Assembly: GCA_030744625.1 (NCBI GenBank) | Contig: JASLQF010000034.1 | Coordinates: forward strand, 1-64,000 | Source: Rhodospirillales bacterium | Lineage (GTDB): Bacteria; Pseudomonadota; Alphaproteobacteria; Rhodospirillales; JASLQF01 | Length of the DNA stretch: 64,000 nt | Direction: 5' to 3' | Shown here: positions 5,257 to 29,134 of the stretch, piece by piece | Position numbering within the stretch: position 1 is the stretch's first letter | Layout of the letters: each line of letters begins with the position of its first letter | The notes under the pieces: model-generated | What the model saw: the letters and a program-made list of their open reading frames with translations, nothing else | What the model was told of the DNA's origin: nothing | Databases searched by the model: none | Position numbers and translations under genes: made by a program

Positions 5257-5278
5257 CGTGCTGCCCCTCCGCGAGCGT

Positions 5279-5442: not shown

Positions 5443-7374
5443 GTCGCCAAGGGCGACGCCCTCGCGGCGCTGATCGGCGCCTCCCGTGATGGTCCCCCGC
5501 GAGACGGCGATGCCGTGCAGACCGCTGTTCATGTCGCGCTCCTCGACGGCGTGGCCCAGGGCTTCCAGGTCGGCGGCGATGGCCAGGATCGGCGTCCCCT
5601 TTTCGAGCTCCGTCGCGCCGTTGCGGTTGACGAAATTGGGAAGGTCGATGGCCGCCTGGATGTCGAGCTTCCAATCGAGAACACCGACCAGGGCCTTGAC
5701 CACGTAACCGATGATGCGCGAGCCGCCCGGCGAGCCGATGACCAGCACCACGCGCCCGCTGGCGTCGAACACCAGAACGGGCGCCATGGAGCTGCGCGGG
5801 CGCTTGCCCGACTCGACCCGATTGGCGATCGGTGCGGCGTCCCGGTTGGGCAGGAACGAAAAGTCGGTAAGCTGATTGTTGAGCAGGAAGCCATTGACCA
5901 TGAGCCGCGCGCCGAACGCGTTCTCGATGCTCGACGTCATGGCCACCGCGTTACCGTCGGCGTCGAGGACGCTCAGGTGCGTGGTCGAGACGCCGTGCTC
6001 GGCGGTGCCCGGCGCCAGCCGCAGGCGCGCACCCACCCCGGGCATCCCCGGCTGCGCCCCCTCCATGCCGCGAAACTCGGAAATGCCACGGGCGCGGAGC
6101 TCCAGATAGCCGGGATCCAGCATCCCCGCCGTCGGCACCGGGACGAAATCGGGATCGGCGATGTAGGTGTCGCGGTCGGCGAAGGCCAGACGGCTGGCCT
6201 CGGCAATCAGGTGGACGGCGTTGGGCGACCCCGCCTCCAAGGCACCCAGGTCGAAGCCTTGCAGCAGGCCGAGTATCTGCAAGGTGGTGATGCCCCCCGA
6301 CGACGGCGGCGGCATCCCGCACACCAACCACTCCCGGTAGGGCAAACACACGGCATCGAGCTTCTTGGCCTCGTAGATGGCCAGGTCGGCGGCGGTCATG
6401 ACGCCGGGGTTGCCGGCGACGCCCCCGACGCTGTCGACGATGGCCTCGGCGAAGGGGCCCGAGTAGAAGGCGTCGGCGCCGAATTCGGCGATCATGCGGA
6501 AAGTGCGGGCGAGTGGGCGGTTGACCAGCCTGGCGCCAACCGGCTTGGCGCTTCCGTCGGGTTCGTAGAAGTAGTCGGCCGGTGCCGCGAACCTCTTGAG
6601 GTACTTGTCTCCGGCCAACAGCTTATGCAGGCGGGGCGATATCTCGAAGCCCTCCTCGGCAAGAGAGATGGCCGGCTCGAAAAGACGTTTCCAGGGCAGG
6701 CGGCCATGCTCGCGGTGGGCCAGCTCGAGCATGCGCAAGAGACCGGGGACACCCACCGAAAGTCCGCCGACCGCCGCGTCGAAGAAGTCGCGCGGCTTGC
6801 CGCTGCCATCGAGGAACATGTAGGGGTGGGCCGCGCCGGGCGCCGTCTCGCGGCCGTCGTAGGCGGCGATCTCGCCGCTCGCCGCCGCGTAGTGCAGCAT
6901 GAAGCCGCCGCCGCCTATGCCCGACGATTGGGGCTCGACCAGGTTGAGCACCATCTGGGCGGCGATAGCGGCGTCCACGGCGCTGCCGCCGGCGCGCAGG
7001 ATGTCGCGCCCGGCCTCGGCGGCCAGGGGATTGGCGGCGGCGATCATGTGTCGCGCCCCGCGCGCCGGTTCCTTGGTCTCGCGGGCGGGGCGGGTCTCGC
7101 GGACGGTGGGGGCCTCGCGGGCGGTGGCCGGACCCGACAAGGCACGCGCCGCGGGGTCGGGGCGGGGCGCAGCCGCCGAAGCCGCCGGCGGCGTCTTCGC
7201 GGCGGGCGCCGAGATGGTTGCCGAATCCGTTGCCGATTCCGTTGCTGATTCAGGCACCGGCGCGCAGGCCGAGACCGCCAACAAAACAACACTCGCGGCC
7301 ACGGCGAAACACAACGGCACGCCGCGGCGCCGATCGCCCCCTCGCTTGGATGCGCTCCCCCCTCGATCGGACAC
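5440..7374 (-). CDS. ggt: gamma-glutamyltransferase, lipoprotein form
   Basis: A 644-residue precursor. The first residues form a lipoprotein signal with lipobox VSAC (Cys37), followed by an Ala/Pro/Thr-rich linker and the GGT catalytic domain. The self-processing site and nucleophile is the first Thr of TTHLSV, preceded by EHGVS; SGIGGGGFML near the start of the domain and SSMAPVL are family motifs. GGT cleaves gamma-glutamyl bonds of glutathione and related compounds in the periplasm. The start is GTG 7374 with AAGGAGA at 7380-7386, five bases away; a longer reading frame upstream (to 7656) has no support. The stop codon lies in the repeat at 5279-5442. Confidence 0.9.
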   Translation of the reverse strand: MSDRGGSASKRGGDRRRGVPLCFAVAASVVLLAVSACAPVPESATESATDSATISAPAAKTPPAASAAAPRPDPAARALSGPATAREAPTVRETRPARETKEPARGARHMIAAANPLAAEAGRDILRAGGSAVDAAIAAQMVLNLVEPQSSGIGGGGFMLHYAAASGEIAAYDGRETAPGAAHPYMFLDGSGKPRDFFDAAVGGLSVGVPGLLRMLELAHREHGRLPWKRLFEPAISLAEEGFEISPRLHKLLAGDKYLKRFAAPADYFYEPDGSAKPVGARLVNRPLARTFRMIAEFGADAFYSGPFAEAIVDSVGGVAGNPGVMTAADLAIYEAKKLDAVCLPYREWLVCGMPPPSSGGITTLQILGLLQGFDLGALEAGSPNAVHLIAEASRLAFADRDTYIADPDFVPVPTAGMLDPGYLELRARGISEFRGMEGAQPGMPGVGARLRLAPGTAEHGVSTTHLSVLDADGNAVAMTSSIENAFGARLMVNGFLLNNQLTDFSFLPNRDAAPIANRVESGKRPRSSMAPVLVFDASGRVVLVIGSPGGSRIIGYVVKALVGVLDWKLDIQAAIDLPNFVNRNGATELEKGTPILAIAADLEALGHAVEERDMNSGLHGIAVSRGTITGGADQRREGVALGD

Positions 7375-11923: not shown

Positions 11924-13051
11924 TCAACGCCCCCGGTAGGTGATGCGGTAGATGGCCCCGACACGGTCGTCGGACACCAGGAGAGAGCCATCGCCGAGTT
12001 CCTTGACGTCCACCGGCCGGCCCCAGGCCCGGCCGCCAACCAGCCAGCCCTCGGCGAATGGCTCCCAGCCCTGGGCGCGGCCGCGCCCGTCGAAGCGCAC
12101 GCGGGCCACCCGATAACCGTCCGGCACGCTGCGGTTCCACGATCCGTGCTGGGCGACGAAGGCATCGCCGCGGTATTCCGGCGGAAACTGCCGGCCGCGG
12201 TAGAAATGCATCCCCAGCGCCGCCACGTGGGCGCCGAAACGCACCACCGGCATCTCGTTGGGCGGCACCGCCTCGCCCTCGAAGTCGGGCGTGCGGTCGG
12301 CGCCGCCGCCGTAATAGGGAAAGCCGAAGTGGAGGCCGGCGCGGGGCGCGTGGTTGAGCTCGTCGGGCGGCGAATCGTCGCCCATGCCGTCGGCGCCGTT
12401 GTCGGTGAAATAGAGCTCTCCGCTCAACGGGTGAAAGTCCATGCCCACCGAATTGCGTACGCCGCGGGCGAACACCTGGGGGACGCCGCCGTCGGCGTCG
12501 AGGCGCACGATGGTGCCCTCCAAGCCGTGCCCACGGCAAATGTTGCAGGGCGCGCCTACGGCGACGTAAAGCCCGCCGTCGGGGCCCAGGGAGGCGTAGC
12601 GCCAGCCGTGATGGGACTTGTCGGGCAGGCCGTCGAAAAGGACGCGCGGCCGGGCGACGCCCAGGGCATTTATGTCGGCGGCGTCGAAGCTGACCACCCG
12701 GTGCTGTTCGGCCACGAACAGGCGGCCGTCACGCCAAGCGATGCCATTCGCCCCGTTGAGCCCGCCGATTACCGGAAAGACGGCGTCGGCGAGACGGTCG
12801 CCGTCGACGTCGGCGACGACGAAGACCCGCGAGCCGCGGGTGCCGACGAAGACGACGCCAAGCTCTTCGGCCACCACCATCGAGCGGGCGCCCGGCACCC
12901 GTGCGTAGAGCTCGATGGCGAAACCAGGCGGAAGGACGATTCGGTCCAGTGGCGAGGCGCCACCGGCCGGAAGGGCCTGAAGCACCAGGCAAAGGCCGAG
13001 GACCGCGCCGGCGAGCCGCGCCGGTTTCCCGGCAGCGAACCGGGATCCCAT
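11924..13051 (-). CDS. PQQ-type sorbosone/glucose dehydrogenase-like beta-propeller
   Basis: A 375-residue exported protein. Residues 1-32 form a signal peptide (hydrophobic LAGAVLGLCLVLQALPAGGA). The rest is a six-bladed propeller of the soluble glucose/sorbosone dehydrogenase family: LPPGFAIELYA, LGPDGGLYVAVGAPCNIC, FARGVRNSVGMDFHP, GELYFTDNGADGMGDD, and SLLVSDDRVGAIYRI. It probably oxidises a sugar or aldehyde in the periplasm with PQQ, but PQQ binding cannot be shown by eye. ATG 13051 was chosen for the signal peptide; GTG 13060 is an alternative. It heads a run with DUF488 and RidA. A perfect palindrome lies just upstream. Confidence 0.82.
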   Translation of the reverse strand: MGSRFAAGKPARLAGAVLGLCLVLQALPAGGASPLDRIVLPPGFAIELYARVPGARSMVVAEELGVVFVGTRGSRVFVVADVDGDRLADAVFPVIGGLNGANGIAWRDGRLFVAEQHRVVSFDAADINALGVARPRVLFDGLPDKSHHGWRYASLGPDGGLYVAVGAPCNICRGHGLEGTIVRLDADGGVPQVFARGVRNSVGMDFHPLSGELYFTDNGADGMGDDSPPDELNHAPRAGLHFGFPYYGGGADRTPDFEGEAVPPNEMPVVRFGAHVAALGMHFYRGRQFPPEYRGDAFVAQHGSWNRSVPDGYRVARVRFDGRGRAQGWEPFAEGWLVGGRAWGRPVDVKELGDGSLLVSDDRVGAIYRITYRGR

Positions 13052-13076
13052 GCTCGCCACGTCAACCCGGATTAGT

Positions 13077-13119
13077 GGATAGAATCTAACATATGGTGCC
13101 CATATGTTAGATTCTATCC
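13077..13119. terminator. perfect 20-bp palindromic hairpin at the gpt 3' end
   Basis: Arms 13077-13096 and 13100-13119 are exact inverted copies of 20 nt with a 3-nt TGC loop; the arm is GGATAGAATCTAACATATGG. The gpt stop codon (13114-13116) lies in the first-transcribed arm, so the hairpin folds at the end of that message. There is no U tract, and the stem is AT-rich beside GC-rich neighbours. It could be a factor-assisted terminator, a two-fold operator for the dehydrogenase gene that starts 26 nt further on, or a small palindromic repeat. Confidence 0.6.
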
Positions 13120-13611
13120 CCCACCGATGTCGGCCCGGGGCTCCACGTATTGGATCTCGGTGTCCCACGGGAAGAATATCCAGGTCTCCTGGCTGACCTC
13201 GCTGATGAAGGTGTCGACGGCGGGCCGGCCCGAGGGCTTGGCGTAGATGGTGGCGAAATGTGCCTTGGGCAGGATGGCGCGCGCTTCCTTGGCGGTGGCC
13301 CCGGTATCCACCAGGTCGTCGATCAAGAGCCAGCCCTCGCCGCCCGTCTCGGCGGCGCGCTCCGGTACCTTGAGGACGGTAATCGACCCCTTGACCTGTT
13401 CGTCGTAGCTCGAGATGCACAGCGTGTCGACGACGCGCAAGCCAAGCTCGCGGGCGAGAATGGCGGCCGGCACGAGACCGCCGCGGGTGAGCGCGACGAT
13501 GCCCTGCCAAGGGCCAAGCCCAACGAGACTGCGCGCCAATATCTTGGTGTCGCGATGGACCTCGGCCCACGTGACAACGTGGTTGATGACGTCGTCCCGC
13601 ATCTTGGCCAT
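13114..13611 (-). CDS. gpt: xanthine(-guanine) phosphoribosyltransferase
   Basis: A 165-residue purine salvage enzyme of the E. coli Gpt type (152 residues). VALTRGGLVPAAILARELG and LLIDDLVDTGATAKEARAI (the PRPP loop) are diagnostic, and CISSYD, FATIYAKPSGRPAVDTF and ETWIFFPWD align well with Gpt. It transfers phosphoribose from PRPP to xanthine, guanine or hypoxanthine, probably at the inner membrane face. ATG 13611 has GGGAGGAAGG upstream. The stop codon lies in the hairpin at 13077-13119. Confidence 0.9.
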   Translation of the reverse strand: MAKMRDDVINHVVTWAEVHRDTKILARSLVGLGPWQGIVALTRGGLVPAAILARELGLRVVDTLCISSYDEQVKGSITVLKVPERAAETGGEGWLLIDDLVDTGATAKEARAILPKAHFATIYAKPSGRPAVDTFISEVSQETWIFFPWDTEIQYVEPRADIGGG

Positions 13612-15168: not shown

Positions 15169-15245
15169 GCGCCCGTAGCTCAATTGGATAGAGCGTCTGA
15201 CTACGGATCAGGAGGTTGGGGGTTCGAGTCCTCCCGGGCGCGCCA
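15169..15245 (+). tRNA. tRNA-Arg (anticodon ACG)
   Basis: A 77-nt tRNA that folds completely: acceptor GCGCCCG/CGGGCGC, D arm GCTC/GAGC, anticodon stem TCTGA/TCAGG with loop CTACGGA (anticodon ACG), T arm GGGGG/CCTCC with loop TTCGAGT, discriminator G and an encoded CCA. ACG reads CGU and, after A34-to-I editing, CGC/CGA. A mutated copy of its 3' half is found 22 kb away at 37389-37440, as expected if this tRNA was an integration site. Confidence 0.97.
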
Positions 15246-15546
15246 AAGCCTGTAAGTGTTTGCGGCGATTGGCGTGGATAGGTTTTGCGCTCTGCCCAGT
15301 GGGGTTTCACACTTTGCGGTGGCGGTCCGTTCTTGCGGCGGAGATGCCGGGCGCGGTCAATAAAGTGGATTTCGGATTGAACATCGATAACTTTTATTTC
15401 TTCTAATTACACTCTAATTTCAGTTGATCACAACGGTCTCCGCGGACACGGTTTCGACCATGTCATGGATCCAATAGCTGGGCGTCCCGGTCCCGACGTC
15501 CGCCAAAAGGCCACGGCCGGATTGGCGGGGCGTCGCGGCCGAGTCC
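15246..15546. other. 301-bp intergenic region after tRNA-Arg
   Basis: The region between tRNA-Arg and the stop of the large membrane-protein gene. Positions 15355-15425 are markedly AT-rich (for example around ATAACTTTTATTTCTTC), unlike the flanks. No ORF with family resemblance, no integrase remnant and no convincing terminator hairpin was found. If the downstream 22 kb is an island, this is its left border. Confidence 0.4.
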
Positions 15547-18279
15547 TTACGAGCCGCCGGAAACCGTGTAGGGGATGCGCCTGATCTCGGGGTTCATGGT
15601 GTTGCCGCTGATGACCAGCGTGGCAAGGACGGTGTAGGCCCCGGGATCGAGCTTTCCCTCGAGGCCAAGGATGAACGTGCCGTCGTCCTGCAACTTTCCT
15701 TGGCCGGCGAGGACCACCTTGCCATTCGCCGCGACGACGACGAAACGGCACTGCGGAATCCGCATGCCGAGCCCCTGCGGCTTGCTCGAGCGGAGGGGCT
15801 CGCGCAGGAGCCTGTATGAGCGCATGGCTCTTTGCAAACGCTCGAACTCGACAAAGACGCGCAACCCGTCGGCGTCGGGCTCGACCTTGGCCACGTAGGC
15901 ATGACGCGGCACCGCGTAGGAATCGTAAGAGCCGACGCCCAGCGGGTAGCTGAAATTCCTGAAGACATCGAAGACCGTCGCTTCGTTCGACCATTCCCTG
16001 ATGATGTAGGGGCCGTTGGTGACCAGGAAGTGACCCCGCTCGCCATGAAATTTACCAAGCGCCGCCCATCGTTTTCGCGCCTCTTCCGCGCTCACCGCCC
16101 CTTTCAGCGCGGCGGGCACGAACCCATCCCTCTCGAACTCCTCGACCAGGCCGGCCAGCCTCTTTTTCATGGGTTGCGAGCGCACGATATCGAGCCATTC
16201 GACGCCCCGGCGTTTCGCTTCTTCCTCGGAGAACGCCGCCCAGCCCCGCGTAACCGCCTCTTCCATGAGGGCGACCACGTGCCACGGAAGCGCGCTCCAC
16301 GGCGGCGCGATGACGGCGGCGTCGGCGAGGTTCTCCCTGGACGCGTCGATGTACACATCGGTGATGGGCATCTCCCGGAGGAAATTCAGCTCGCCCATCC
16401 TGAAAGACTTGGACGTCTTGTCGATGCCGGCGGTCTTCAGGCCGACCAGCCGCTGGCGCATCAGCGCCGTCGACTTGTCCACATGGGGATCGTAGGCGGC
16501 GGCGTCATCGGCGGAGCGCACGCCCCAGCGGAAGGCGAAGGAATAGGGATAGAGAATATCCGCGAAGGTCGTGTGGGTTCCGTCGTGGAAGTCCGAACTC
16601 AAGGACTTGTAGGTCAGCCTGACCCGGGCGCTTTTGCCGCCGCCGACGGCGCGCGGAAGGCCGCTTCCGGGCTCCGGGCGCACGGCATCGGCGGGAACGC
16701 CGACGGCGCCCGGCGCCGCCCCTTGTGCGGCCCGTTGGGTGGGGGCGCGGCTTTCGACGATGGGTTCGGCGAGGATGGTGAGACTGGTCACGGTGTAGAG
16801 GACCATCAGCACCGTCATCGGATACTGGCTCTTGAGGGCGAGGCCGCGCTCCCCGAAGGAATTTACCGCCAGCACGTGAGCCAGATAGACGGCGACGATA
16901 TGGCCGACGACGATGGAGACCACGGCGGCGTACCAGGCGAAGCGGGCCCCGACGACGGTGATGTCTACCCGGTAGTCCGCCGTGCCCAGGATATCCCAGC
17001 CAAAGCCGAAGGGATCCGAGGCCAGCGGAACGATGTACTGCCCCTGGATCACGATGAAGGTCAGGTAGTGCGCCAGATGATAGGCGATGGCGATGGGAAC
17101 GAGCGAGAAGGTGAACGTGCGCGCCATCTCCAACACCGGGCGCCGGGCGCCGGTGAGCGCGCTCATCAGCGCGCAGGTGACCAGATAGGCACCAAGAAAC
17201 AGGCCCCAGAAGCCCAACAGTCCGAGCGTGCGGATGATCAGGACGGGACCTTCGCCGGCACCACCGCCGAGCGCCACCAGGAATTCCTCGAATTCCACCC
17301 ATTGCGGCGTCGCCAGGGCGCCGTCGAAAAGAACCATCGACAGCATGAAAAGCACGAAGGCCATCATCGAGCCCGACACCGGCTCGTCGCCGAGGAGGCC
17401 CACCGCGAAGGGACGCAACGCCCATTCGCGCTTCGCCGCCGGCGCCTGGCGGAAACACCCGTAACCGTCGACGCACGCACCTTCGCGGTCCGTCCAGTCG
17501 AGAGAGCAGGCGTCACAGGCCTCGGGGCGCGAAACCCTGACCTCGGTGGGGGAAAAGCGGGCCAGGATCCCGAAGAGCAGGGAGAAGGCCTCGCCGTGCC
17601 TGAGCCACCGTTGACGACCGAACAGGATCATTCCAACCCACGTAACCGCCGAATAGGAGATGGCCATTACGGCGACGCTGGCCGGCACGGCCGGTTCCGG
17701 ATAGATCAGCTCGAGCCAGGAGAACACCATCAAGAGCCCCAGCGCCGGCCACGCCCCGAGGCCTTTCGGGTAAGGCAGGCGCAGCGACAACTCGCGGCCG
17801 GGCCGGACGCGGCGCCAAAGGGCGTCGGCCCAATGGAAGAGGGCGCTCCACGGATTGAGGAGGGCCCACAGGTTGCCGACGAAGGCCGAGACGTAGGCCA
17901 GCCCCACCCACCAGATGATCCATACCAGCAACGGTGCCAGGTTCTGCTGCGCGGTCTGATTTCCAACCAATCCGGTGAGCACCACGAGCACCAACAGGAT
18001 CACGGAAACGAGTTGCAGGACGAATACAACGGCGCCATGGGCAAGAAGCCGGCCCACCCCGAAACGAAGAAGATCGAGGCGGGGATAGGCGCGGGACCAT
18101 GGCGTGCCGCGGAGGAATATCCCGATGACGACGAAGGAAACGGCGACGGCCGCCGCCGCCCCCATCAGGTAGAGTTCGAAGGGCACCGGCAGATCGTAGC
18201 GCTGCCCGAAGGCATGGGCGGCGGCCGGCCCGGCTCCGGCGGCGATGGCGGCCAGCGCCACCGGCGGCAGTACCCACAA
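15547..18279 (-). CDS. large membrane protein: fenitrothion hydrolase-like domain fused to a periplasmic domain
   Basis: A 910-residue protein in two parts. Residues 1-505 hold about ten or more membrane helices and resemble the family annotated as fenitrothion hydrolase (N-terminal HAFGQRYDLPVPF after a signal-like stretch). Membrane histidines occur as YHLAHYL (401, 404) and GHIVAVYLAH (460, 469), and a Cys cluster (C255, C258, C269, C275) lies in a loop. Residues about 550-800 are soluble; GHFLVTNGPYIIREW resembles the C-lobe of family 5 solute-binding proteins. The last 110 residues are beta-rich. It is the last gene of the minus-strand array, 31 nt after the cupredoxin gene. Hydrolase activity is not implied; metal or haem binding by the His/Cys sites is inference. 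Function unknown. Confidence 0.7.
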   Translation of the reverse strand: MWVLPPVALAAIAAGAGPAAAHAFGQRYDLPVPFELYLMGAAAAVAVSFVVIGIFLRGTPWSRAYPRLDLLRFGVGRLLAHGAVVFVLQLVSVILLVLVVLTGLVGNQTAQQNLAPLLVWIIWWVGLAYVSAFVGNLWALLNPWSALFHWADALWRRVRPGRELSLRLPYPKGLGAWPALGLLMVFSWLELIYPEPAVPASVAVMAISYSAVTWVGMILFGRQRWLRHGEAFSLLFGILARFSPTEVRVSRPEACDACSLDWTDREGACVDGYGCFRQAPAAKREWALRPFAVGLLGDEPVSGSMMAFVLFMLSMVLFDGALATPQWVEFEEFLVALGGGAGEGPVLIIRTLGLLGFWGLFLGAYLVTCALMSALTGARRPVLEMARTFTFSLVPIAIAYHLAHYLTFIVIQGQYIVPLASDPFGFGWDILGTADYRVDITVVGARFAWYAAVVSIVVGHIVAVYLAHVLAVNSFGERGLALKSQYPMTVLMVLYTVTSLTILAEPIVESRAPTQRAAQGAAPGAVGVPADAVRPEPGSGLPRAVGGGKSARVRLTYKSLSSDFHDGTHTTFADILYPYSFAFRWGVRSADDAAAYDPHVDKSTALMRQRLVGLKTAGIDKTSKSFRMGELNFLREMPITDVYIDASRENLADAAVIAPPWSALPWHVVALMEEAVTRGWAAFSEEEAKRRGVEWLDIVRSQPMKKRLAGLVEEFERDGFVPAALKGAVSAEEARKRWAALGKFHGERGHFLVTNGPYIIREWSNEATVFDVFRNFSYPLGVGSYDSYAVPRHAYVAKVEPDADGLRVFVEFERLQRAMRSYRLLREPLRSSKPQGLGMRIPQCRFVVVAANGKVVLAGQGKLQDDGTFILGLEGKLDPGAYTVLATLVISGNTMNPEIRRIPYTVSGGS

Positions 18280-18310
18280 GGTATTTCCGAAAAAACGCAG
18301 GACAGCCTCC

Positions 18311-18718
18311 CTAACGCGGGTAAACCTCTAGCCGCAGGAGGGCGGACTCACCGTGTCCTCCGGCATGGTGGCCGCCGTGCACGTTGATGGGAAACCGGCC
18401 GGCGGCGTAAGCCTCGAATGAGAATTCGGCCACGCTACCGGGCTTTACCGCCTTCTCGATGTCGTAGCCATGAAGATGCAGGGACACCGCCTCGTCGGAA
18501 GTGATCCGTATCCGGACCATGTCTCCCTGTTTCACCTTCATGGTCCGCATGCCTTCGGCCACGTGGCCATGATCGATATTGACCTCGAAAGTCCTAACGA
18601 CGGGGTCCGCCGCCGACAAGGAGAAGCCTCCCACCCCGGTCATGACGAGAAGCAGCACGCCGCTCCCAATGGCTCGCAGGTTGTCCATCATGATCCTCGC
18701 CGCCATACCTCTTTTCAC
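18311..18718 (-). CDS. exported cupredoxin-like protein
   Basis: A 135-residue protein with an N-terminal hydrophobic export segment (about 15-36) and a cupredoxin-like beta domain: VKQGDMVRIRITSDEA, HLHGYD (H81, H83) and a His-rich loop HGGHHAGGHG (114-122). The HxHGYD motif occurs in cupredoxins of the EfeO/nitrous oxide reductase type. No Cys follows, so a blue (type 1) copper site is not expected; a His-only copper site is possible. Its ATG overlaps the stop of the upstream gene (ATGA), so translation is coupled. It probably delivers copper or electrons to the membrane protein encoded next, which is inference. Confidence 0.75.
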   Translation of the reverse strand: MKRGMAARIMMDNLRAIGSGVLLLVMTGVGGFSLSAADPVVRTFEVNIDHGHVAEGMRTMKVKQGDMVRIRITSDEAVSLHLHGYDIEKAVKPGSVAEFSFEAYAAGRFPINVHGGHHAGGHGESALLRLEVYPR

Positions 18719-19866
18719 TCGCCCGGCGTGAATTGCACACCGCCGATGCGATTGACGCTCCAGCTTTGATTGTAGGGCTCGGGGAAAAACGCCGGATCAC
18801 CGGCCATGAACCAAATCAGGCGCCCCGCCCCGTCGGTGAAGCCGGCGACCGGGTTCCAGGCCGCGGCCGGCTTGGTGGCGACGCCGAGTCGCAGCCAGCC
18901 GTTCCAGGGCAAGTCCTTGAGCTTCACGGAGCGTATGAAGACGGCCGAGTTGAGGCCGGCATGGGAATCGAAGGCGATGTTTTCGATTCCCGACGTGAAT
19001 TCCGCCGAAAAGTATTCCTTCTTGACCGTGTAGCCGACGACCGCCTTCCGGCACCCGCTGGTCAGCAGCGACACGAGATCGCGTTCCAGGTTGAGCTTCT
19101 CCACCGTCGTTCGGTAATCGCCCTTTTGCAGACGCGCCGCCACCTCGTCGGCCCGACGCCTCGACGGTACATCGGCCAGGCCGTCGGCAAGCGCCCTGTA
19201 GGCCTGATACCACCCCATCTTCTTCCATGGGGCCGGTTGCCATCCGTTGAGATTGAAGACCGGGGCGGCGACCAGATCCGCCACCACGAATTCGTCCAGT
19301 GCCGCGTCCCATTGCGCCGCTGTCCCCTGGCGACGGGAGGCGACGAGCCTTTTGGCAAGCTCGCCCCGGGCCCTGACCCGAACATCGGAGATGGAGACGC
19401 CTTGGCGACCGGTGGAAGCCTCTGGATAGCGCCGCTTCGCGGCATCGGCGAGGTCGGCGTGATGCAGGAAATCCCCGTGCAGCGGACCCACCGGATAGGG
19501 ATGGAAGACGAATCCCTCCGTCCCGGCGGTCAGGGAGCGGGTCATCGTCTCGACGATGGCGCAGGCGGAATCTTCGTCCCTGGCCAGCCGGGATGCCGGG
19601 TTGACCGAGAGGACGACGAGAGAATGCAGGGACTCGATGTCGTGCACGTACTCCGGCCTGTCGCCGGCAAAGGCGGGCGCGCGCCCCACGTAGGCATGCA
19701 ACTTGCCCGTCGCGAGAAGGCGTGCCGCGTTTCCGGGTTCGACCGGCTCGACCCGGATTTCCTGCGGGTAATAGGAGGGATAGACGGGAAGTTCGTGACC
19801 GCCTTCGGCGGCGGTGGCCATCATCAGAAAGGCGGTCGGGAAAAGGAGCGCGCTGAATATTCTCAT
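18715..19866 (-). CDS. periplasmic protein of unknown function
   Basis: A 383-residue protein not recognised as any family. Residues 1-20 are a signal peptide (MRIFSALLFPTAFLMMATAA). The rest is soluble and mixed alpha/beta, with no Cys pair, haem motif or WD/TPR repeats. Some features recall periplasmic binding proteins (VEPGNAARLLATGKLHAYVG near the N-terminus, SLVVLSVNP). ATG 19866 was chosen for the signal peptide. It starts 42 nt after the second LivM gene and overlaps the cupredoxin start by 4 nt, so it belongs to the same transcript. A role as a second binding protein or partner of the cupredoxin is a guess. Confidence 0.65.
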   Translation of the reverse strand: MRIFSALLFPTAFLMMATAAEGGHELPVYPSYYPQEIRVEPVEPGNAARLLATGKLHAYVGRAPAFAGDRPEYVHDIESLHSLVVLSVNPASRLARDEDSACAIVETMTRSLTAGTEGFVFHPYPVGPLHGDFLHHADLADAAKRRYPEASTGRQGVSISDVRVRARGELAKRLVASRRQGTAAQWDAALDEFVVADLVAAPVFNLNGWQPAPWKKMGWYQAYRALADGLADVPSRRRADEVAARLQKGDYRTTVEKLNLERDLVSLLTSGCRKAVVGYTVKKEYFSAEFTSGIENIAFDSHAGLNSAVFIRSVKLKDLPWNGWLRLGVATKPAAAWNPVAGFTDGAGRLIWFMAGDPAFFPEPYNQSWSVNRIGGVQFTPGE

Positions 19867-19907
19867 GGAGAGAGCCCAGCAAAATTCCGCGTCACGCCAC
19901 GTCCGTC

Positions 19908-20891
19908 TCATTGAAGCGGCGGCTGATGTCTTGTTTGAAATCTTTTCTTTGCCAGTCTTTTCACGTGGTCGGCGACGGCGACGGTTGTTCCCGCGATCCC
20001 CATGGGGAAAATGCAAACCACGGCGATGAGCAAGATCCCCATCACCATATTCCGCGTCCCCGCCCAGTGCAACGCGAATTCATCGAGCGCCGCGTAGGCG
20101 AAGGCGCCGATCACGGGCCCCGCGAACTGGCGCACACCACCCAGTACGGTCGCCAGAACCAGGATCGCGGAAAACAGCCAACCCAGCTGTTCCGGCGTGA
20201 TTTGCCGGTTCAATTGCCCGTAGAGGGCGCCCGCAAGGCCCATGAACAGGCCCGAGATGACGAAGGCCAACCATCGGTAGCGGCGCACGGGGATGCCAAT
20301 GCTCTCGGCTCTAATCTCATTGTCCCGGATGGCCCTCAGGGCCTTTCCGAAGGGCGAAAGGTCGATGCGCCGCAACACGAATACCGTCACCAGGAAACCG
20401 CCCGCGATGTAATTGTAGAAGGCGGCAATGAATTCGCTGGGCTCATACTCGATGCCCAGCATGGTCAGCCGCGGGATGTACATGGAACCGCCTGCCAGCA
20501 TGTAGAGGAACCATCCCTCCGAACCGAACAATCGGAAGAAGCTGCCGCCGACGAAGGAGGCGTTGACGATTTGCGTGAAGGCCAGGGTCAGAATGGCGAA
20601 GTGCATCCTCGAGGCCTGGACGCAGAAATATCCGAGGACGGCGGCGAGGGCGGTGGCGCAAACGATGCCGGAGAGCAAATAGATCTCCAGCGAATCCATG
20701 CCCACCAACGTGTGGAGAAAGGCTCCGGTGTAGGCCCCGGCGCCGAAATACACGGCGTGCCCCAGCGAAAGCAGGCCGGTGGTCCCGAAGAGGATGTTCA
20801 GGGACAAACACGCGATGGAATAAACCAAGGCGTAACAGAGGACGATCAGAGGATAGGGCTCGAGGACGCCCGGCATAACGAAAAGCACCAC
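19908..20891 (-). CDS. branched-chain amino acid-type ABC permease, second LivM
   Basis: A LivM-type inner-membrane permease of at least 327 residues: LSLNILFGTTGLLSLGHAVYFGAGAY, FGKALRAIRDNEIRAESIG (the EAA-like coupling loop) and LGGVRQFAGPVIGAFAY. The given start, GTG 20891, would cut the first membrane helix: the in-frame codons upstream continue LLVLVGAVGVVLFVMPGVL without ATG, GTG or TTG. A CTG at 20991-20993, preceded by AAGGGA, would give a complete 361-residue protein and is the likelier true start. It is a separate paralogue of the LivM at 22517 and follows livF by about 70 nt, so the importer seems to have an extra permease subunit. Confidence 0.85.
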   Translation of the reverse strand: MVLFVMPGVLEPYPLIVLCYALVYSIACLSLNILFGTTGLLSLGHAVYFGAGAYTGAFLHTLVGMDSLEIYLLSGIVCATALAAVLGYFCVQASRMHFAILTLAFTQIVNASFVGGSFFRLFGSEGWFLYMLAGGSMYIPRLTMLGIEYEPSEFIAAFYNYIAGGFLVTVFVLRRIDLSPFGKALRAIRDNEIRAESIGIPVRRYRWLAFVISGLFMGLAGALYGQLNRQITPEQLGWLFSAILVLATVLGGVRQFAGPVIGAFAYAALDEFALHWAGTRNMVMGILLIAVVCIFPMGIAGTTVAVADHVKRLAKKRFQTRHQPPLQ

Positions 20892-21063
20892 GCCGACGGC
20901 ACCGACGAGGACCAGCAGGCGCGTCGACCCCGTCCAGCCCTCGAACGACGCGAAGACGCTGTCCGCGCGGATACTTACCTTTGGATCTGTCAGGCGTTTT
21001 CCCTTTACGACTGCCGCGCCGGCGCGCGGCCACGGAGAAAGGGGTCGGCGGTGCGCCGAACCC

Positions 21064-21780
21064 TCAGCCGCGCAGGGTTTTCATGACGTCTTCGTTATTG
21101 ACGGCATCTTCCGGGCTGCCATGGAAGATGATTTCGCCACGATCGATCGCGTACAGCCGATCGGCGATCAACGAGGCGTGGGCCAAGTTGGATTCCGCCA
21201 TCAGAAGCGCGATCCCCATCTCCCTGATTCTTATCATGGCGTCCCGGAAACGGTTGACCACCACCGGCGCCAACCCCTCGAACGCCTCGTCGAGGAGGAG
21301 CATCGACGGAGCCAGGAACATGGCCCGGCAGATGGCCACCATCTTCCTCTGGCCGCCGCTCAGGTTGATGCCTTCGCGGCCGGTAAGCTCGCGCACCTCG
21401 GGGAACACCGAGAACACCCGCTCCTCGACGGTGCTGTCGCCGGCGAAAGCCTCGGTTCTGTGCGGGTCCGCCAGCCACTGGCTGATCTGCAGGTTTTCGG
21501 CCACCGAAAGCTCGGGGAAGACGCCGCAGTCCTCGGGCGAATAGCCTATGCCGTGCTTGGCGGTGACATGGGCCGGAACGTTGGTGATGTCCTCGCCGTG
21601 GAAGGTGACGTGCCCGGACTTCACGGGAAGGAGTCCCATGATGCTTTCCATGGTGGTGGATTTGCCGGCGCCGTTGCGTCCGACCAGGGCAACGACCTCG
21701 CCCTCCTTCACGTCCAGCGAGACGTCTTGAAGGACGTGGGCGGGTCCACGGAAGGTATTGATTCCCTTTAGCTCGAGCAT
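21064..21780 (-). CDS. livF: ABC transporter ATP-binding protein LivF type
   Basis: A 238-residue ATPase. Walker A is GRNGAGKST, the signature is LSGGQRKM, Walker B is MLLLDEAFEGLAP and the switch region ends in MAESN where most LivF/LivG have VEQN/VEHD. Length and sequence order match LivF. It powers import by the Liv-type complex encoded around it. Start ATG 21780 lies 12 nt after the livG stop, so the two are in one operon. Confidence 0.92.
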   Translation of the reverse strand: MLELKGINTFRGPAHVLQDVSLDVKEGEVVALVGRNGAGKSTTMESIMGLLPVKSGHVTFHGEDITNVPAHVTAKHGIGYSPEDCGVFPELSVAENLQISQWLADPHRTEAFAGDSTVEERVFSVFPEVRELTGREGINLSGGQRKMVAICRAMFLAPSMLLLDEAFEGLAPVVVNRFRDAMIRIREMGIALLMAESNLAHASLIADRLYAIDRGEIIFHGSPEDAVNNEDVMKTLRG

Positions 21781-21792
21781 GTCGGCGTCACC

Positions 21793-22539
21793 TCACCCGG
21801 TACCAAGGAAGATGGTTTCCACTTCCTTGTTGGCTCTGATTTCATCCGGCGATCCGTCGGCCAGGATTTTCCCGTCGCTCATCACCACGATGCGGTCGGA
21901 GTACTTGAACACCACGTCCATGTCGTGCTCGACGACGGCCGCCGTGATGTGTCCGGCCCGCACCACGGACGAGATGGTATCCATGATCTGGGCCTTGTCG
22001 CGGGTGCTGACGCCGCTGGTCGGCTCGTCGAGGAACAGGAACTTGGGGCGCAACGCGTAGGCCACCGCCACGTCAAGCAGCTTGCGCTCGCCCTGGGCCA
22101 TCTCCTTGGCCAGGATGTGCCCCTTGCCGCCGAGGCCGAACAGTTCCAGCACTTCATCGGTTTCCTTGTTTACCTCATGGTCGTGGTCCGCCAACGACAT
22201 GAGCTTGAGGGTCTTGTTCTCGCGCGAGAAGATGGACAGCGCCACGTTGTCGAAGGCGGTGAGGTCGTCGAACAGGTTGACGATCTGGAAGCTCCGGGCG
22301 ATGCCCGCCTTGATGCGTCCCGTCACCGACATATTGGTGATGTCCTGATCGAGGAAGATGATCTCGCCCGAATCCGGCGTCAGATAGGCGCTGAGCAGGT
22401 TCACGAGGCTGGTCTTCCCCGCCCCGTTGGGGCCGACCAGGGCGAGGACCTCCCCCTCGGTGACGACAAAGTCCACGCCGTCAACGGCGCGCGTCTCGCC
22501 GAAGTGCTTCTTGAGGTTAACCGTCCGTAACAGGCTCAC
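21793..22539 (-). CDS. livG: ABC transporter ATP-binding protein LivG type
   Basis: A 248-residue ATPase. Walker A is GPNGAGKTS, the Liv-specific GIARSFQIVNLFDDLTAFDNV follows, the signature region is MAQGERKLLDVA (the LSGG motif is degenerate, as often in LivG), Walker B is FLFLDEPTSGVS and the switch His is VVEHDMD. It pairs with LivF. Its start overlaps the LivM stop by 23 nt, showing tight coupling in the minus-strand operon. Confidence 0.92.
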   Translation of the reverse strand: MSLLRTVNLKKHFGETRAVDGVDFVVTEGEVLALVGPNGAGKTSLVNLLSAYLTPDSGEIIFLDQDITNMSVTGRIKAGIARSFQIVNLFDDLTAFDNVALSIFSRENKTLKLMSLADHDHEVNKETDEVLELFGLGGKGHILAKEMAQGERKLLDVAVAYALRPKFLFLDEPTSGVSTRDKAQIMDTISSVVRAGHITAAVVEHDMDVVFKYSDRIVVMSDGKILADGSPDEIRANKEVETIFLGTG

Positions 22540-23545
22540 GTTGAGGCTCCTCCTTCGTTCGCAGCTTCGCGGCGAGTTGGGACAACCCGCCGACGACGCC
22601 GGTAGGCAGAACCATTACCAAGACTATGAGAATGCCGCCGAGCACGACCTGCCAGTACTCCGTCGAGGCGATGGCGTAGACCTCGAGGTAGTTGTAGAGG
22701 ACGCCACCGACGATGGGGCCGGTGAAGTTGCGGAAGCCGCCGAGCAGGGTCACGAACACGAGCTTGCCGGAAAACGGCCACCATAACGTATCGGGGGTGA
22801 TGAGCCCGGCCAACGGCACCCACAAAGCGCCCGCCAGACCCGTCACCGAGCCGGAAACGATGTACGCGATGAGACGGTACTTCCTGATGTTCACCCCGAG
22901 GAACTCGGCCCGTATTTCATTGTCGCGGATCGCCTGCAGCGCCTTGCCGAAGGGCGAGTGGGTGATGATCCACATGCCGACGACAACGATGCAGAAGATG
23001 ACCAGCACGTAATAATAATAGTCGTGAACGAATCTCTGGAAGGCGCCGCCACCCGAATATTCGGTGATCCCCAACAGCGACGGCCACTTGACGCGAATGC
23101 CGTCGGTGCCGCCGGTCACCCAGAAGAACTTGTAGGACAGGCTCCACAGGACCTGGGACAACGCTAGGCACATGATGGCGAAGAAAATGCGCGTCAGCCC
23201 CGCGCACACGAGACCGAACACCACGGCAATGGCCGCCGTGGCCGCCAACCCGCACAGAAGAAGAAGTTCCATGCTGGTGATTCCGAGGTCCCGCGCGGCG
23301 AATGCCACGGCGTAGGCCCCCATACCGTAAAAGGCGGAATGGCCGAAGGAGAGCAGCCCGGTATAGCCAAGCAGGAGGTTGAAGCCGAGTCCGGCGATGG
23401 CGAAGAGGAGGCCATAGGCGAGAATCATCGTCTGGTAAGTTCCCGCCACCTGGGGAAACAGGGCAAGCCCCACCGCGAAGACAACCGCGATCCCCACAAC
23501 CTGGGGGAGACGGATACGTCCCTGTCGTTTATCCATGGCCGCCAT
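22517..23545 (-). CDS. livM: branched-chain amino acid-type ABC permease LivM
   Basis: A 342-residue permease with about nine to ten membrane helices. GFNLLLGYTGLLSFGHSAFYGMGAY and FGKALQAIRDNEIRAEFLG are LivM hallmarks. ATG 23545 overlaps the LivH TGA (TGATG), and its end overlaps livG by 23 nt. It is very similar to the orphan LivM at 33676 (both contain FVHDYYYYVLV and KFFWVTGG) and less similar to the one at 19908. Confidence 0.92.
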   Translation of the reverse strand: MAAMDKRQGRIRLPQVVGIAVVFAVGLALFPQVAGTYQTMILAYGLLFAIAGLGFNLLLGYTGLLSFGHSAFYGMGAYAVAFAARDLGITSMELLLLCGLAATAAIAVVFGLVCAGLTRIFFAIMCLALSQVLWSLSYKFFWVTGGTDGIRVKWPSLLGITEYSGGGAFQRFVHDYYYYVLVIFCIVVVGMWIITHSPFGKALQAIRDNEIRAEFLGVNIRKYRLIAYIVSGSVTGLAGALWVPLAGLITPDTLWWPFSGKLVFVTLLGGFRNFTGPIVGGVLYNYLEVYAIASTEYWQVVLGGILIVLVMVLPTGVVGGLSQLAAKLRTKEEPQREPVTDG

Positions 23546-24420
23546 CACGCTTTTCCAAACAGGCCGGTTGGCCGCCACAAGAGAACGCCGGCGGCGATCA
23601 GATAGAGCACCGCCAGCTCGATCTCGGGAAAGAACTGCACCCCGGCCGTCCTCACGAAGCTCACGATGACCGCCCCGATAAGGGCGCCCTTGAGGCTTCC
23701 GATGCCGCCCACGACGACGACGACGAATGCGATGATCAAGGCGTCGAGCGCCATGCCCAACACAGCCGTTTGGGTGGGCACGACGATGGCGCCGCCAAGG
23801 CCGGCCAGGAAGCAGCCGATTCCGAAGGCGAGGACATAGACCCGCCCCACGTCGAGGCCGAGCGCCGAGGCCATCTTCATGTTTTGGGAAGTTGCCCGCA
23901 GCATCACGCCGAACCTGGTGCGGTACACGAACGCCCACAGGCCGATGGCGGCGGCAATGCCGACAGCGATGACCAGGAAATTATAATTGGGGTACTTGAG
24001 GCCCATGACCGGCATGCTTCCAAATGGTGCCATCGGCTGGTCGGCGGCCAGGGGACTGCCTCCGAACAAGACCCGCATGAGGTCCTCGAGGACCAGAAGT
24101 ATGCCGAACGTGAGCAGCAACTGATATTCCTCGGGCCGCTTGTAAAAGGGCCGCAGCAAGGTGGGCTCCAGCGCCATTCCGAACACGGCAACGATGAAGG
24201 CCCCGACGGGCATGGCCAGCAAGAGCAACAAGGGATGCACGTTGCCGGCAAGTTGTCCGATGAGCCAAGCCGTCACGAAGGCGCCGAGGGCAAAGAAGCT
24301 CCCGTGCGCCATGTTGACGATTTGCATGACGCCGTAAATCAGGGTGAGGCCCGAGGCGATGAGGAAGAGAATCGCCGCGTAGAAGAGGGCATTCAGAACC
24401 TGGAGTATGAAAATGTCCAC
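23545..24420 (-). CDS. livH: branched-chain amino acid-type ABC permease LivH
   Basis: A 291-residue permease: SGLTLIYGVMQIVNMAHGSFFALGAF near the N-terminus, RATSQNMKMASALGLDVGRVYVLAFGIG (coupling loop) and GGIGSLKGALIGA near the end. GTG 24420 is preferred; AAGGGGTT lies just upstream and the fold starts directly. It is 310 nt downstream of the binding-protein gene with a hairpin between, and overlaps livM. Substrate could be an amino acid, amide or similar small molecule; nitrilase next door hints at a nitrogen compound. Confidence 0.9.
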   Translation of the reverse strand: MDIFILQVLNALFYAAILFLIASGLTLIYGVMQIVNMAHGSFFALGAFVTAWLIGQLAGNVHPLLLLLAMPVGAFIVAVFGMALEPTLLRPFYKRPEEYQLLLTFGILLVLEDLMRVLFGGSPLAADQPMAPFGSMPVMGLKYPNYNFLVIAVGIAAAIGLWAFVYRTRFGVMLRATSQNMKMASALGLDVGRVYVLAFGIGCFLAGLGGAIVVPTQTAVLGMALDALIIAFVVVVVGGIGSLKGALIGAVIVSFVRTAGVQFFPEIELAVLYLIAAGVLLWRPTGLFGKA

Positions 24421-24675
24421 GCGTAACCCCTTGGCAAAAAGACTCGTTCTCGCTCCAGCTGGGAAGTCCAAGCCCATCCCCAGCGTCAATCGAAAAATTT
24501 TCACAGGGCCCGCTCGACCGCCGGACCAGACATTTCCGGCCGTTTCCGCGGCTGGGTGACTAGCCTGTTCCCCCCCTTGGTGTGCCTTGGCGATTGCGTC
24601 GTCGGGCGACGGCCTTTATCTGGATTCCGGCGCCCATGACACCTCTTATCCGCCTGCCAGGACAGTGTCAAGGAA

Positions 24676-24704
24676 AGCGGCCGTGCTCAACGAACACGGC
24701 CGCT
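24676..24704 (-). terminator. hairpin between the binding-protein gene and livH
   Basis: A perfect 10-bp stem AGCGGCCGTG/CACGGCCGCT with a 9-nt loop lies 26 nt after the binding-protein stop. In the direction of transcription it is followed by TTTCCTT, a weak U run. Placed here it can end part of the transcripts or protect the upstream message from decay, giving more binding protein than permease, a common arrangement in ABC importers. Confidence 0.65.
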
Positions 24705-24729
24705 CCCCTGCGAACAGTAAGGTCCAGTC

Positions 24730-26121
24730 CTATCCCGACATACTGGGCCAGGTGGTTTTGATCCAGTTGGCGGTTGCCGTCGAATCGTTGTGGCCCTTGC
24801 CGGGCTTTGGCCAGTTCGGCGGCGCCGTGATGTTGCGCACCGGAATGGTAACCACCTTGTCCAGATCCCAAGCAGAGAACGGATACTCGGCATAGTTCTT
24901 GGAGAACCCGGACGTCGCGTCCTTGTACCCCTGGTGATTGTCCGGCCGGATGTAGTAGTAGCCGGCCGGCCCGTCATAGCCCAGGCCCTCGAGCATGGAG
25001 ATGATCGCATCGTCGTCCGGCCAGCCGCCGACCAGCTGGTTGGCCTTCTCGATGGCGATCCGCACCATGTTAAGTCCCACATAGGCGCCTTCCGCCGACA
25101 TGCCCGGGAATTCGCCCCAGCGCTTCTTGAACGCCTCGACGAACCTGTCCTTGATCGGCCACTTGCCTTTCTCCGGGAACGTGAAGTAGAAGTTGGCGTG
25201 CACCCCGGCGAGCGTGCCCTCGGGATGGTCCTTGCCCACCGCGTGCGGCGGCGTGCCGTGGGACAACGTCGCCGCCCACTTCATCTTGTCGAAGACGCCG
25301 TAACGCAGCGCCTGCTTGTAGAGCGCCACGTAATCGCCGCCCCAGCACGCCGTGCACAGGAGATCGGGCTTGGCCGACAGCGCCTTGGTGAGGTGCGGCG
25401 TGAAGTCCGTGGTGCCCAGCTTGGGCCACCCCACCGACACCGTCTCGATCCCCGGCAGGAATTTCTCCATCGCCAGGGTGTAGTGTTCGAGGGCGTTGCG
25501 CCCGTAGCTGTAGTCCGGGTGGATGTGGGCGATCTTGCGCACCTCCGGCCATTCCCGGGCCGAGCCGACCGCCGCCGACACGCCGTCCGACGACTGGATG
25601 GCGGTGATGCGGAAGATGTAATGCGGCTCGGGCACCGCCACGTCGAACAGGAAGTCGGTGCAGCCATCCGTGAACATGGTCAGCATCCCCAACTCCTCGC
25701 ACACGGGGCCGATGGCCGGCGTGTTGCCACTGGAGATGACTCCGGTGAACAGCTCGACGTTTTCCTGCAGCTTCATGCGCCGCACTTCCTTGACGTTGGC
25801 GTCGGTACCCGCCGCCTCGTCCGCCTGGATGGTCTCAATCTTGCGCTTGCCCAAGAGCCCGCCGGCGGCGTTGATCTCTTCCGCGGCGAGGATGTGCCCC
25901 TTGAGGGATTGGTCGGCAAGAATGGCGGCTGGCCCCGTCAGGAACGTGATGTGACCCGTCTTGAATGGCTTGCTAGGAATTTTCCCCTTGGGTTTCGCGG
26001 CTTCGGCGACCTGCGGTGCCACGACGGCTCCCGCCGCCCCGGCGACCGCCGCGGCGCCGGCCGCCACACCCATTTGGTTCATGAAATCCCTGCGGCTTAC
26101 TTTCTTTTCATTGTCTTTCAT
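24730..26121 (-). CDS. Tat-exported ABC transporter substrate-binding protein
   Basis: A 463-residue binding protein of the Leu/Ile/Val or amide type (periplasmic-binding-like type I fold). The N-terminus has a twin-arginine signal, SRRDFMNQM with an Ala-rich hydrophobic core ending at APQVAEA. The mature part shows GHITFLTGPAAILADQSLKG, the typical ligand-binding start, and IHPDYSYGRNALEHY. Tat export suggests folding or cofactor loading before transport, unusual but known for this family in alphaproteobacteria. It is the first transport gene of the minus-strand array, downstream of the nitrilase gene. The ligand is not known; nitriles, amides or carboxylates are possible. Confidence 0.88.
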   Translation of the reverse strand: MKDNEKKVSRRDFMNQMGVAAGAAAVAGAAGAVVAPQVAEAAKPKGKIPSKPFKTGHITFLTGPAAILADQSLKGHILAAEEINAAGGLLGKRKIETIQADEAAGTDANVKEVRRMKLQENVELFTGVISSGNTPAIGPVCEELGMLTMFTDGCTDFLFDVAVPEPHYIFRITAIQSSDGVSAAVGSAREWPEVRKIAHIHPDYSYGRNALEHYTLAMEKFLPGIETVSVGWPKLGTTDFTPHLTKALSAKPDLLCTACWGGDYVALYKQALRYGVFDKMKWAATLSHGTPPHAVGKDHPEGTLAGVHANFYFTFPEKGKWPIKDRFVEAFKKRWGEFPGMSAEGAYVGLNMVRIAIEKANQLVGGWPDDDAIISMLEGLGYDGPAGYYYIRPDNHQGYKDATSGFSKNYAEYPFSAWDLDKVVTIPVRNITAPPNWPKPGKGHNDSTATANWIKTTWPSMSG

Positions 26122-26429
26122 GACGTGCTCTCTCCCTAGTTTTTTGGTTTACACATGCATGGGGTGAGAATTCTCTGCGTTGGCGGTTGAAACCCGCCGC
26201 ACTTTCGGAAGTGATGTCCTCCCATTCAGAGAGCTTCACGAACCCTAAACTATATCGCAGGGATTTCAGGGAGTCTACGCTCTCGCGCCCGACGTTCGCC
26301 TGGCGGCTCCTGGTGGATTTGCCGGGAAACTTCCTTACATGCAAGTGACCCAAAGCGGAACGGGAAAGCGGATCGGCCTGCCACCAACCGATCGCCCGCT
26401 CTACACCCGAGGGCCTCACTCACCAATTC
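26122..26429. other. 308-bp intergenic region between the nitrilase and binding-protein genes
   Basis: Both flanking genes read leftwards, so this stretch may hold a promoter for the transporter operon. It is less GC-rich than its surroundings around 26140-26270. A frame of 103 codons here has no family resemblance. No palindrome or hairpin strong enough to name was seen. Confidence 0.35.
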
Positions 26430-27392
26430 TTATTCATCCGCAAAGGGATCGATGGCGTTGCCGGCACAGGTGACGACCGCGGGCATCGAGCGTTCGTTGA
26501 CGTAAAGCTGGAACACGTCGGGTCGCGCGTAATGACCCGTGGCATCGAAATCGAACTTGCCGCGTACGATTTCGTCGAGTTCCAGTTCCGCCGTCAGAAT
26601 GGCGGGACCGTCGACGTCGGGGCCGGCAAGCACTTTTCCCAAAGGAGAGATGATACAACTGCCGCCGCGCATCAACACCGTCTTCGGGTCGTCTCCCTGG
26701 ATCGCTTCGTACTCCTCGGGGCAATCCCCCCGCGTCAGGTGCTGGCACGCGCTCAACACGAAGCACCGTCCCTCCAACGCGACATGGCGCATGGTGGAAA
26801 GCCAGGTCTCGCGGTCGTCGGCCGTCGGCGCGCAGTAGATCTGGATGCCCTTCGAATACATCGTCATGCGCAGAAGCGGCATGTAGTTCTCCCAGCAAAT
26901 GACGGCGCCGAGCCTGCCCAGCGGCGTGTCGAATACGGGAAGGGTCGATCCGTCGCCAAAGCCCCACACCAGCCGTTCCATGGCGGTCGGCATCAACTTG
27001 CGGTGTTTGCCCAGCAGGCGGCCGTCGGGAGCGAAAAACAGCACGGTGCAGTAGAGCGTCCCCAATTCTTTTTCGATCACTCCGATAACCAGGTGCGCGC
27101 CCGCCGCGCGCGCCGCTTGGCCGAGGGCGTCGCACGCCGCTCCCGGGACCTCGACGGCGCTCTCGAAGTAGCGCCTGAAATCATCCCGTCCCTCCGGCGT
27201 GCGACCGCCGACACGCGCGCCGAAGTCGAGTCCCTTCGGGTAAGCCGATACGAAGGCCTCCGGAAAAAGGATCAGTTCGGCGCCTTGCTTGGCGGCATTC
27301 GCCGCCAGTTCATGGACCTTCTCGATGGTCGCCCCGAGATCGAACACGACCGGACAGTCCTGGATGATGGCGGCGGCAACTTTGCGCGACAT
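26430..27392 (-). CDS. nitrilase (carbon-nitrogen hydrolase)
   Basis: A 320-residue enzyme of nitrilase branch 1. The catalytic triad is visible: Glu45 (LFPEAFVSAYP), Lys132 (GKHRKLMPT) and Cys166 (AVICWENYMPLLR). AYPKGLDFGARVG is typical of true nitrilases, which convert R-CN directly to carboxylate and ammonia. Length is usual (310-360). ATG 27392 follows GGGGGAGAA and is better than GTG 27410. It lies between a DUF1326 gene and the ABC binding protein on the same strand, suggesting that a nitrile or its product is imported or made by this cluster. Which nitrile cannot be told. Confidence 0.9.
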   Translation of the reverse strand: MSRKVAAAIIQDCPVVFDLGATIEKVHELAANAAKQGAELILFPEAFVSAYPKGLDFGARVGGRTPEGRDDFRRYFESAVEVPGAACDALGQAARAAGAHLVIGVIEKELGTLYCTVLFFAPDGRLLGKHRKLMPTAMERLVWGFGDGSTLPVFDTPLGRLGAVICWENYMPLLRMTMYSKGIQIYCAPTADDRETWLSTMRHVALEGRCFVLSACQHLTRGDCPEEYEAIQGDDPKTVLMRGGSCIISPLGKVLAGPDVDGPAILTAELELDEIVRGKFDFDATGHYARPDVFQLYVNERSMPAVVTCAGNAIDPFADE

Positions 27393-27556
27393 CGCGGTTC
27401 TCCCCCTCACATCGGTTCCTTGCCCGTGCCATCGCGCGGACGCGGCCGGTCAATTCGGACTGGGCTCGCCGGCGCCCGGCGGTACGGCGCTTCCCAGGAC
27501 GCCGGCGGCGATTCAACGCGGCAGCAGGGCGCGTCTTTCTTGGCCCGTGGGGCCGG

Positions 27557-29121: not shown

Positions 29122-29134
29122 GGGAGGCACGTAA

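Follow-up and report, generated by a model that had tools for sequence, protein, structure and literature searches.

The gene at 15547-18279 of the window, by which we mean the whole stretch of 64,000 nucleotides that was analysed, encodes a membrane protein (MEM) fused to a portion of a family-5 solute-binding protein (SOL), and it lies in a conserved operon together with genes for a secreted protein (PBPx), a cupredoxin-like protein and a Liv-type ABC importer. The best explanation of the whole, plausible though somewhat short of probable, is that one half of a split family-5 receptor is tethered to a copper-linked MEM and serves copper capture, with the Liv-type importer acting alongside.

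The fusion gene and its operon

The open reading frame is intact on the minus strand, with zero internal stops and a TTG start (Table 1). An in-frame CTG at 18300, which would add a 7-residue N-terminal extension including an Arg, has AGGGAGG five bases upstream, whereas no AGGGAGG-like site precedes the TTG at 18279; as the better placed of the two codons, the CTG may be the true start. The initial annotation had described a 910-residue fusion of a multi-helix domain with a binding-protein-like domain, and this fusion is real: ten predicted transmembrane (TM) helices are followed by a periplasmic region. An assembly artefact can be ruled out, because the same architecture recurs in Rokubacteria, Bradyrhizobium, Acetobacteraceae, Muproteobacteria and other Alphaproteobacteria.

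Table 1. Features of the fusion gene and its operon in the window
Feature	Position	Strand	Remarks
MEM-SOL fusion gene	15547..18279	-	910 codons counted from TTG; full-length homologous fusions known
MEM, residues 1-510	16750..18279	-	signal-peptide-like N terminus, then ten predicted TM helices, N-out/C-out
His22	18214..18216	-	immediately behind AxA-type signal cleavage site
Four-Cys loop, residues 255-275	17455..17517	-	predicted cytoplasmic
His404	17068..17070	-	TM8, invariant
His460	16900..16902	-	TM9, invariant
His468	16876..16878	-	TM9, near-invariant
Met492	16804..16806	-	TM10, invariant
SOL, residues 526-790	15910..16704	-	N-lobe portion, family-5 solute-binding protein; FHDG and NGPY motifs
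C-terminal beta-sandwich, residues 791-910	15550..15909	-	AF2 strands; weakly CopC-like
Cupredoxin-like secreted protein	18311..18718	-	HxH (H81, H83) invariant; H114, H122 near-invariant
PBPx, secreted, proposed second lobe of family-5 binding protein	18715..20016	-	likely start ATG 19866
LivM-type permease, second copy	19908..20891	-	Pfam BPD_transp_2
LivF-type ATPase	21064..21780	-	
LivG-type ATPase	21793..22539	-	
LivM-type permease	22517..23548	-	within ORF 22517-23938; approximate start
LivH-type permease	23545..24504	-	
Peripla_BP_6 substrate-binding protein (SBP), Tat-type leader	24730..26121	-	

The gene order SBP-(PBPx-SOL)-LivH-LivM-LivG-LivF-(LivM)-PBPx-(cupredoxin)-MEM-SOL is common to the window, Bradyrhizobium NAS80.1, two other alphaproteobacteria, Acetobacteraceae and Muproteobacteria. 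The series SBP-LivH-LivM-LivG-LivF-PBPx-(cupredoxin)-MEM-SOL was found in the window and at L017, G145, G180 and G821, and on partial contigs in G808. The cupredoxin-like gene, which had been described as the next gene, does exist but precedes MEM-SOL in the operon rather than following it; it is absent from the Acetobacteraceae and Rokubacteria operons. The SBP of the operon belongs to no named model, its score against the urea protein UrtA being 71 bits vs a cut-off of 493 bits.

The tree of MEM groups 11 fusions with three unfused rows (support 90/97), a pattern that requires three changes, such as a single gain and two losses. With these 11 examples, the MEM-SOL fusion is rare but conserved. 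SOL is carried by 3 of 385 class-level genomes and PBPx by 1 of 399 phylum-level genomes; in these two sets no relative of either was found outside such an operon, and plasmids held none that was convincing. Since Liv-type operons also lie beside distant MEM genes, the association between MEM and the ABC importer appears to predate the fusion or to have arisen independently of it.

Several features of the surroundings were also recorded. Among plasmid-borne GroEL copies, that of Azospirillum is nearest to the one encoded in the window (72% identity), which makes an alphaproteobacterial origin probable. The 3' end of the tRNA-Arg gene at 15169-15245 plus five bases (15235-15250, 16 nt) is repeated exactly at 37425-37440, and the G+C content falls from 0.68 left of the tRNA to 0.63 over the operon (15246-27410). 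The repeat and the lower G+C point to a candidate 22-kb genomic island bearing the operon. MerT (PF02411, E 3e-27) and a secreted, MerP-like HMA protein are encoded at 28681-29425 beside a DUF1326 gene (27557-28258); they form a heavy-metal uptake pair, and none of the rest of a mer operon was seen. Upstream of the operon, 26430-27410 encodes a Nit6803-like nitrilase (217 vs 503 bits, below the curated cut-off), which is not conserved with the operon among the compared loci. The stretch 29453-31378 encodes a 641-residue protein consisting almost entirely of WD40 repeats (13 stretches). Near several operons there are a GSDH-like gene, a PQQ alcohol dehydrogenase gene and an MBL-fold gene with a distant likeness to quinoprotein-relay hydrolases (window 11924-13120; L017 17634-19364; L088 18189-19070).

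The membrane half

The AF2 model of MEM has pLDDT values mostly above 90, and its ten helices obey the positive-inside rule, with 24 Lys and Arg residues inside vs 4 outside. By this charge pattern the mature N terminus and SOL face the periplasm, and the Cys loop is cytoplasmic; by the predicted topology, SOL, His22 and the cupredoxin would share one side of the membrane. His22 is kept in 59 of 59 close homologues and is gone from the haloarchaeal members of the wider set.

The histidines that had been singled out in the membrane half fared unevenly. H401, H404 and H460 are present as described, but the residue given as His469 is actually His468. In all 61 close homologues H404, H460, M492, Y400, D319 and Q414 are invariant, and H468 is kept in 60 of them; H401, on the other hand, is Asn in 30 of the 61, so that of the two proposed pairs 401/404 is not conserved. 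H404, H460 and M492 are also invariant in 18 of 18 mixed sequences, ranging from haloarchaea to mycobacteria and down to 27% identity. The four cysteines that had been reported (C255, C258, C269 and C275) are all there, but about a quarter of the homologues, some fusions among them, lack the loop that bears them. To judge from the alignments, both H401 and the four-Cys loop appear dispensable. According to the helix register, H404, H460 and M492 are located 17, 15 and 12 residues, respectively, from the periplasmic ends of their helices, and these similar depths make it possible that the three residues share one site.

MEM (residues ~18-510) stands free in most of its owners, as a protein of about 460-530 amino acids. 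We found it at 67 loci in species genomes, mainly of Chloroflexota (SAR202/Dehalococcoidia), Nitrospinota and Pseudomonadota, and on 60 plasmid records, including those of rhizobia, Sulfitobacter, mycobacteria and haloarchaea. No Pfam or NCBIfam model covers the family (63 members were compared with Pfam), and profile search and Foldseek found no solved relative in the PDB. MEM is a widespread unnamed family of bacteria and archaea. Membership in the CopD family was rejected, as PF05425 is absent in 63 members and hhalign against a CopC-CopD profile gave a probability of 0.3%. Fenitrothion hydrolase, considered as a name for such membrane proteins, was also discarded, the literature having yielded no paper in support of the homology.

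Copper genes near MEM

A cupredoxin-like gene is located directly upstream of MEM on the same strand in 51 of the 86 loci with room for one, and in eight further loci a CopC-CopD-cytochrome c fusion (Pfam CopC E 2e-21, CopD E 1e-16) lies within about 50 bases of MEM. YtkA-like and small His-rich proteins are recurrent neighbours. Distant MEM genes adjoin the pmoCAB copper monooxygenase genes in two mycobacteria, and others have CopC, DUF1326 or cytochrome oxidase genes as neighbours; the gene for the copper chaperone PCu(A)C occurs beside some distant members, a galactose oxidase-like gene next to one, and a heavy-metal P-type ATPase gene near another. As a counter-context, some distant MEM genes are found among catabolic (nicotinate, tannase) rather than copper genes. 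On balance, we consider it probable that MEM handles copper.

Two of these settings deserve separate mention. On plasmids of Mycobacterium dioxanotrophicus and M. chubuense NBB4 (L156 and L159), MEM and a small cupredoxin-like gene lie within pmo/hmoCAB clusters, with sigC, and this MEM gene is a candidate copper-supply gene for the actinobacterial copper monooxygenase (CuMMO). At L155, L160, L165 and L158 (Sulfitobacter, Fuscovulum and Neorhizobium), distant MEM genes abut complete Liv-type ABC operons in nicotinate-degradation clusters.

The family alignment of the cupredoxin-like protein shows no conserved Cys ligand, and hence no type-1 site (His-Cys-His). With an invariant HxH and no Cys, the protein seems to carry copper rather than electrons.

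The soluble half and PBPx

Kinship of the soluble half to family-5 binding proteins, as suggested initially, was borne out: residues 526-768 matched the archaeal OppA 7fi3 in phmmer (E 9e-9), in a profile search (E 8e-17) and by fold in Foldseek (E 3e-6). Pfam SBP_bac_5 (PF00496) was detected in 5 of 63 alignment members, with a best E of 7e-4 and scores under the curated cut-off where shown. The stretch GHFLVTNGPYIIREW, which begins at residue 749, had been likened to the C-lobe; the motif falls in the N-lobe instead, the alignment spanning residues 68-298 of 7fi3 and positions 28-129 of the SBP_bac_5 profile. This coverage identifies SOL as an N-lobe, and both its sequence and its modelled fold are similar to that part of a family-5 protein. 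MEM-SOL does not have the two lobes and ligand cleft in one chain: of the two lobes it contains the N-lobe region alone, and the rest is a beta-sandwich. The best-named structural matches of this sandwich are CopC domains, with E-values that are not significant (Foldseek: 9c14, probability 1.00 but E 0.1; 5icu, probability 0.92), and profile comparison with CopC gave a probability of 6%. No conserved His that could serve as a CopC His-brace ligand was seen in residues 791-910, either in the sequence or in the family alignment.

PBPx has no family match by sequence in Pfam-type searches. Its model, of moderate confidence (mean pLDDT 54), gave 100 matches in the PDB with E<1e-3, the best being NikA (E 8e-7), and all 50 that were listed are family-5 binding proteins; the modelled fold thus appears to be that of family 5. 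The best profile alignment places PBPx on NikA 214-297, the start of domain II, where none of 100 column shuffles of a 65-column segment reached the score. For the full-length alignment 9 of 200 shuffles were as good, and the sequence match is weak outside this one segment. In the model, helices and strands succeed one another as they do in domain II and the C-terminus of NikA, element by element. The C-terminal 90 residues are disordered in the stand-alone model, and comparison of this segment with the family-5 N-terminus was not significant (37 of 100 shuffles as good); in length, nevertheless, they would suit the N-terminal strand that SOL lacks.

A Rosetta-stone pattern links the two proteins. 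Eleven loci join SOL to MEM; in three genomes (L022, at 3331-5649, L088 and L089), a second PBPx copy and a second SOL copy form one chain with the second lobe first. There is no sequence similarity between SOL and PBPx. Taking these results together, we think it likely that PBPx is the missing second lobe of SOL. Should both lobe assignments hold, the PBPx-SOL chain represents a circularly permuted family-5 protein with its lobes reversed, of which MEM-SOL and PBPx together make up the split form. A literature search found no natural precedent for such a protein, which is weak evidence.

Proposed mechanism and alternatives

In the mechanism that we favour, MEM would be an inner-membrane protein extended into the periplasm by the SOL N-lobe and the CopC-like beta-sandwich. 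PBPx, from the gene two upstream, would supply the missing lobe: after secretion it would bind to the membrane-anchored SOL half and so complete a working receptor. Together with the cupredoxin that has no Cys, the receptor would bind copper, probably in a complex with an organic ligand, and pass it on to MEM, where a copper site within the membrane could be made up of H404, H460 and M492. The organic part, or a solute related to it, would enter through the Liv-type ABC importer. The fusion, the kinship of its parts, the conservation of the operon and the copper genes around the family are established; we infer the re-joining of the lobes, copper as the metal, the direction of transport and the role of the ABC importer. 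That the receptor is naturally split and lobe-reversed, with one half in a copper-importing MEM of a new transporter class and the other secreted and sometimes re-fused in reverse, strikes us as doubtful, and we treat the idea that the operon as a whole imports a copper complex as a working hypothesis on the unlikely side.

The intramembrane histidines would also suit a haem- or quinone-binding redox protein, with TM His residues as haem ligands, that connects the quinone pool by electron transfer to periplasmic copper proteins such as copper monooxygenases. H404 and H460 are invariant and lie on neighbouring helices at similar depth, CuMMO and heme-copper oxidase genes are among the neighbours, and PQQ alcohol dehydrogenase or GSDH genes occur near some operons. 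However, Pfam, NCBIfam and the PDB revealed no relationship to cytochrome b, the adjacent cupredoxin without a Cys ligand is no usual electron carrier, and H460 and H468 are spaced by 8 residues, whereas the His spacing for stacked haems is usually 13-14 residues. We regard a redox function as improbable.

The remaining alternatives concern the soluble proteins. The fused domain might be a sensor or receptor for an organic (peptide-like or aromatic) solute, with MEM as its transporter or regulator and the copper genes as incidental neighbours. Family-5 and Liv-type proteins bind organic solutes as a rule, and distant MEM genes occur beside Liv-type operons in nicotinate-degradation clusters or adjoin TTT or TRAP binding-protein genes. 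This sits poorly with the finding that MEM has cupredoxin, CopC-CopD, YtkA, PCu(A)C and CuMMO genes as recurrent neighbours in Chloroflexota, Nitrospinota, Pseudomonadota and Actinomycetota, and we consider such an organic-solute receptor unlikely. Equally, PBPx and SOL could be separate, individually degenerate binding-protein relics or structural adaptors instead of two halves of a receptor, a view favoured by the limited sequence support for PBPx as a second lobe and the extra beta-sandwich behind the SOL N-lobe. Yet PBPx appears to supply elements missing from SOL, the two are encoded close together and are fused in three genomes, and the PBPx runs GHE, PWNG and AAWNP stay invariant, as expected of a working protein. 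We give relics or adaptors little credence.

Comparison with known systems

With family-5 binding proteins such as OppA of Thermococcus kodakarensis (7fi3) and NikA, SOL shares the N-lobe with its FHDG..TAAD and NGPY motifs, and PBPx models as the NikA/DppA fold. In those proteins both lobes are normally one polypeptide, whereas here they are apparently distributed over two genes or fused in reverse, and a membrane protein that is not of the ABC type anchors one of the halves. GlnPQ and OpuA are ABC importers in which a binding protein is fused to the permease. They resemble MEM-SOL in that a substrate-binding module is covalently attached to a membrane protein; the membrane partner in MEM-SOL is no ABC permease, however, and carries a single lobe only. 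The SBP-LivH-LivM-LivG-LivF set conserved beside the fusion is that of the Liv-type (HAAT) importers of branched-chain amino acids, and it differs from the usual sets by the addition of PBPx, cupredoxin and MEM-SOL and, in some genomes, of a second LivM.

In Bacillus subtilis YcnJ and YcnI, N-terminal His copper sites feed the membrane CopD domain (PMC12362106, PMC13344008). Like this CopC-CopD-YtkA importer, MEM-SOL combines a membrane protein with extracellular domains in a copper neighbourhood, with cupredoxin-type and YtkA-type partners, and the mature N-terminal His of MEM resembles that in the His-brace of YcnI and CopC (PMC12362106, PMC13344008). Unlike YcnJ, MEM has no detectable CopD homology, the His ligands of CopC are missing from the sandwich of MEM-SOL, and a binding-protein lobe stands where CopC would.

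Significance

Copper import in bacteria is little understood, and few candidate importers have been described (PMC13344008). MEM points to a widespread unnamed family near cupredoxins, CopC-CopD proteins and copper monooxygenases, and its few invariant residues are suited to mutagenesis. If the split binding protein is confirmed, it would represent an uncommon way of constructing a receptor and a natural test of how the lobes of binding proteins assemble; if true, it would mean a two-piece receptor built around an unstudied copper-linked transporter.
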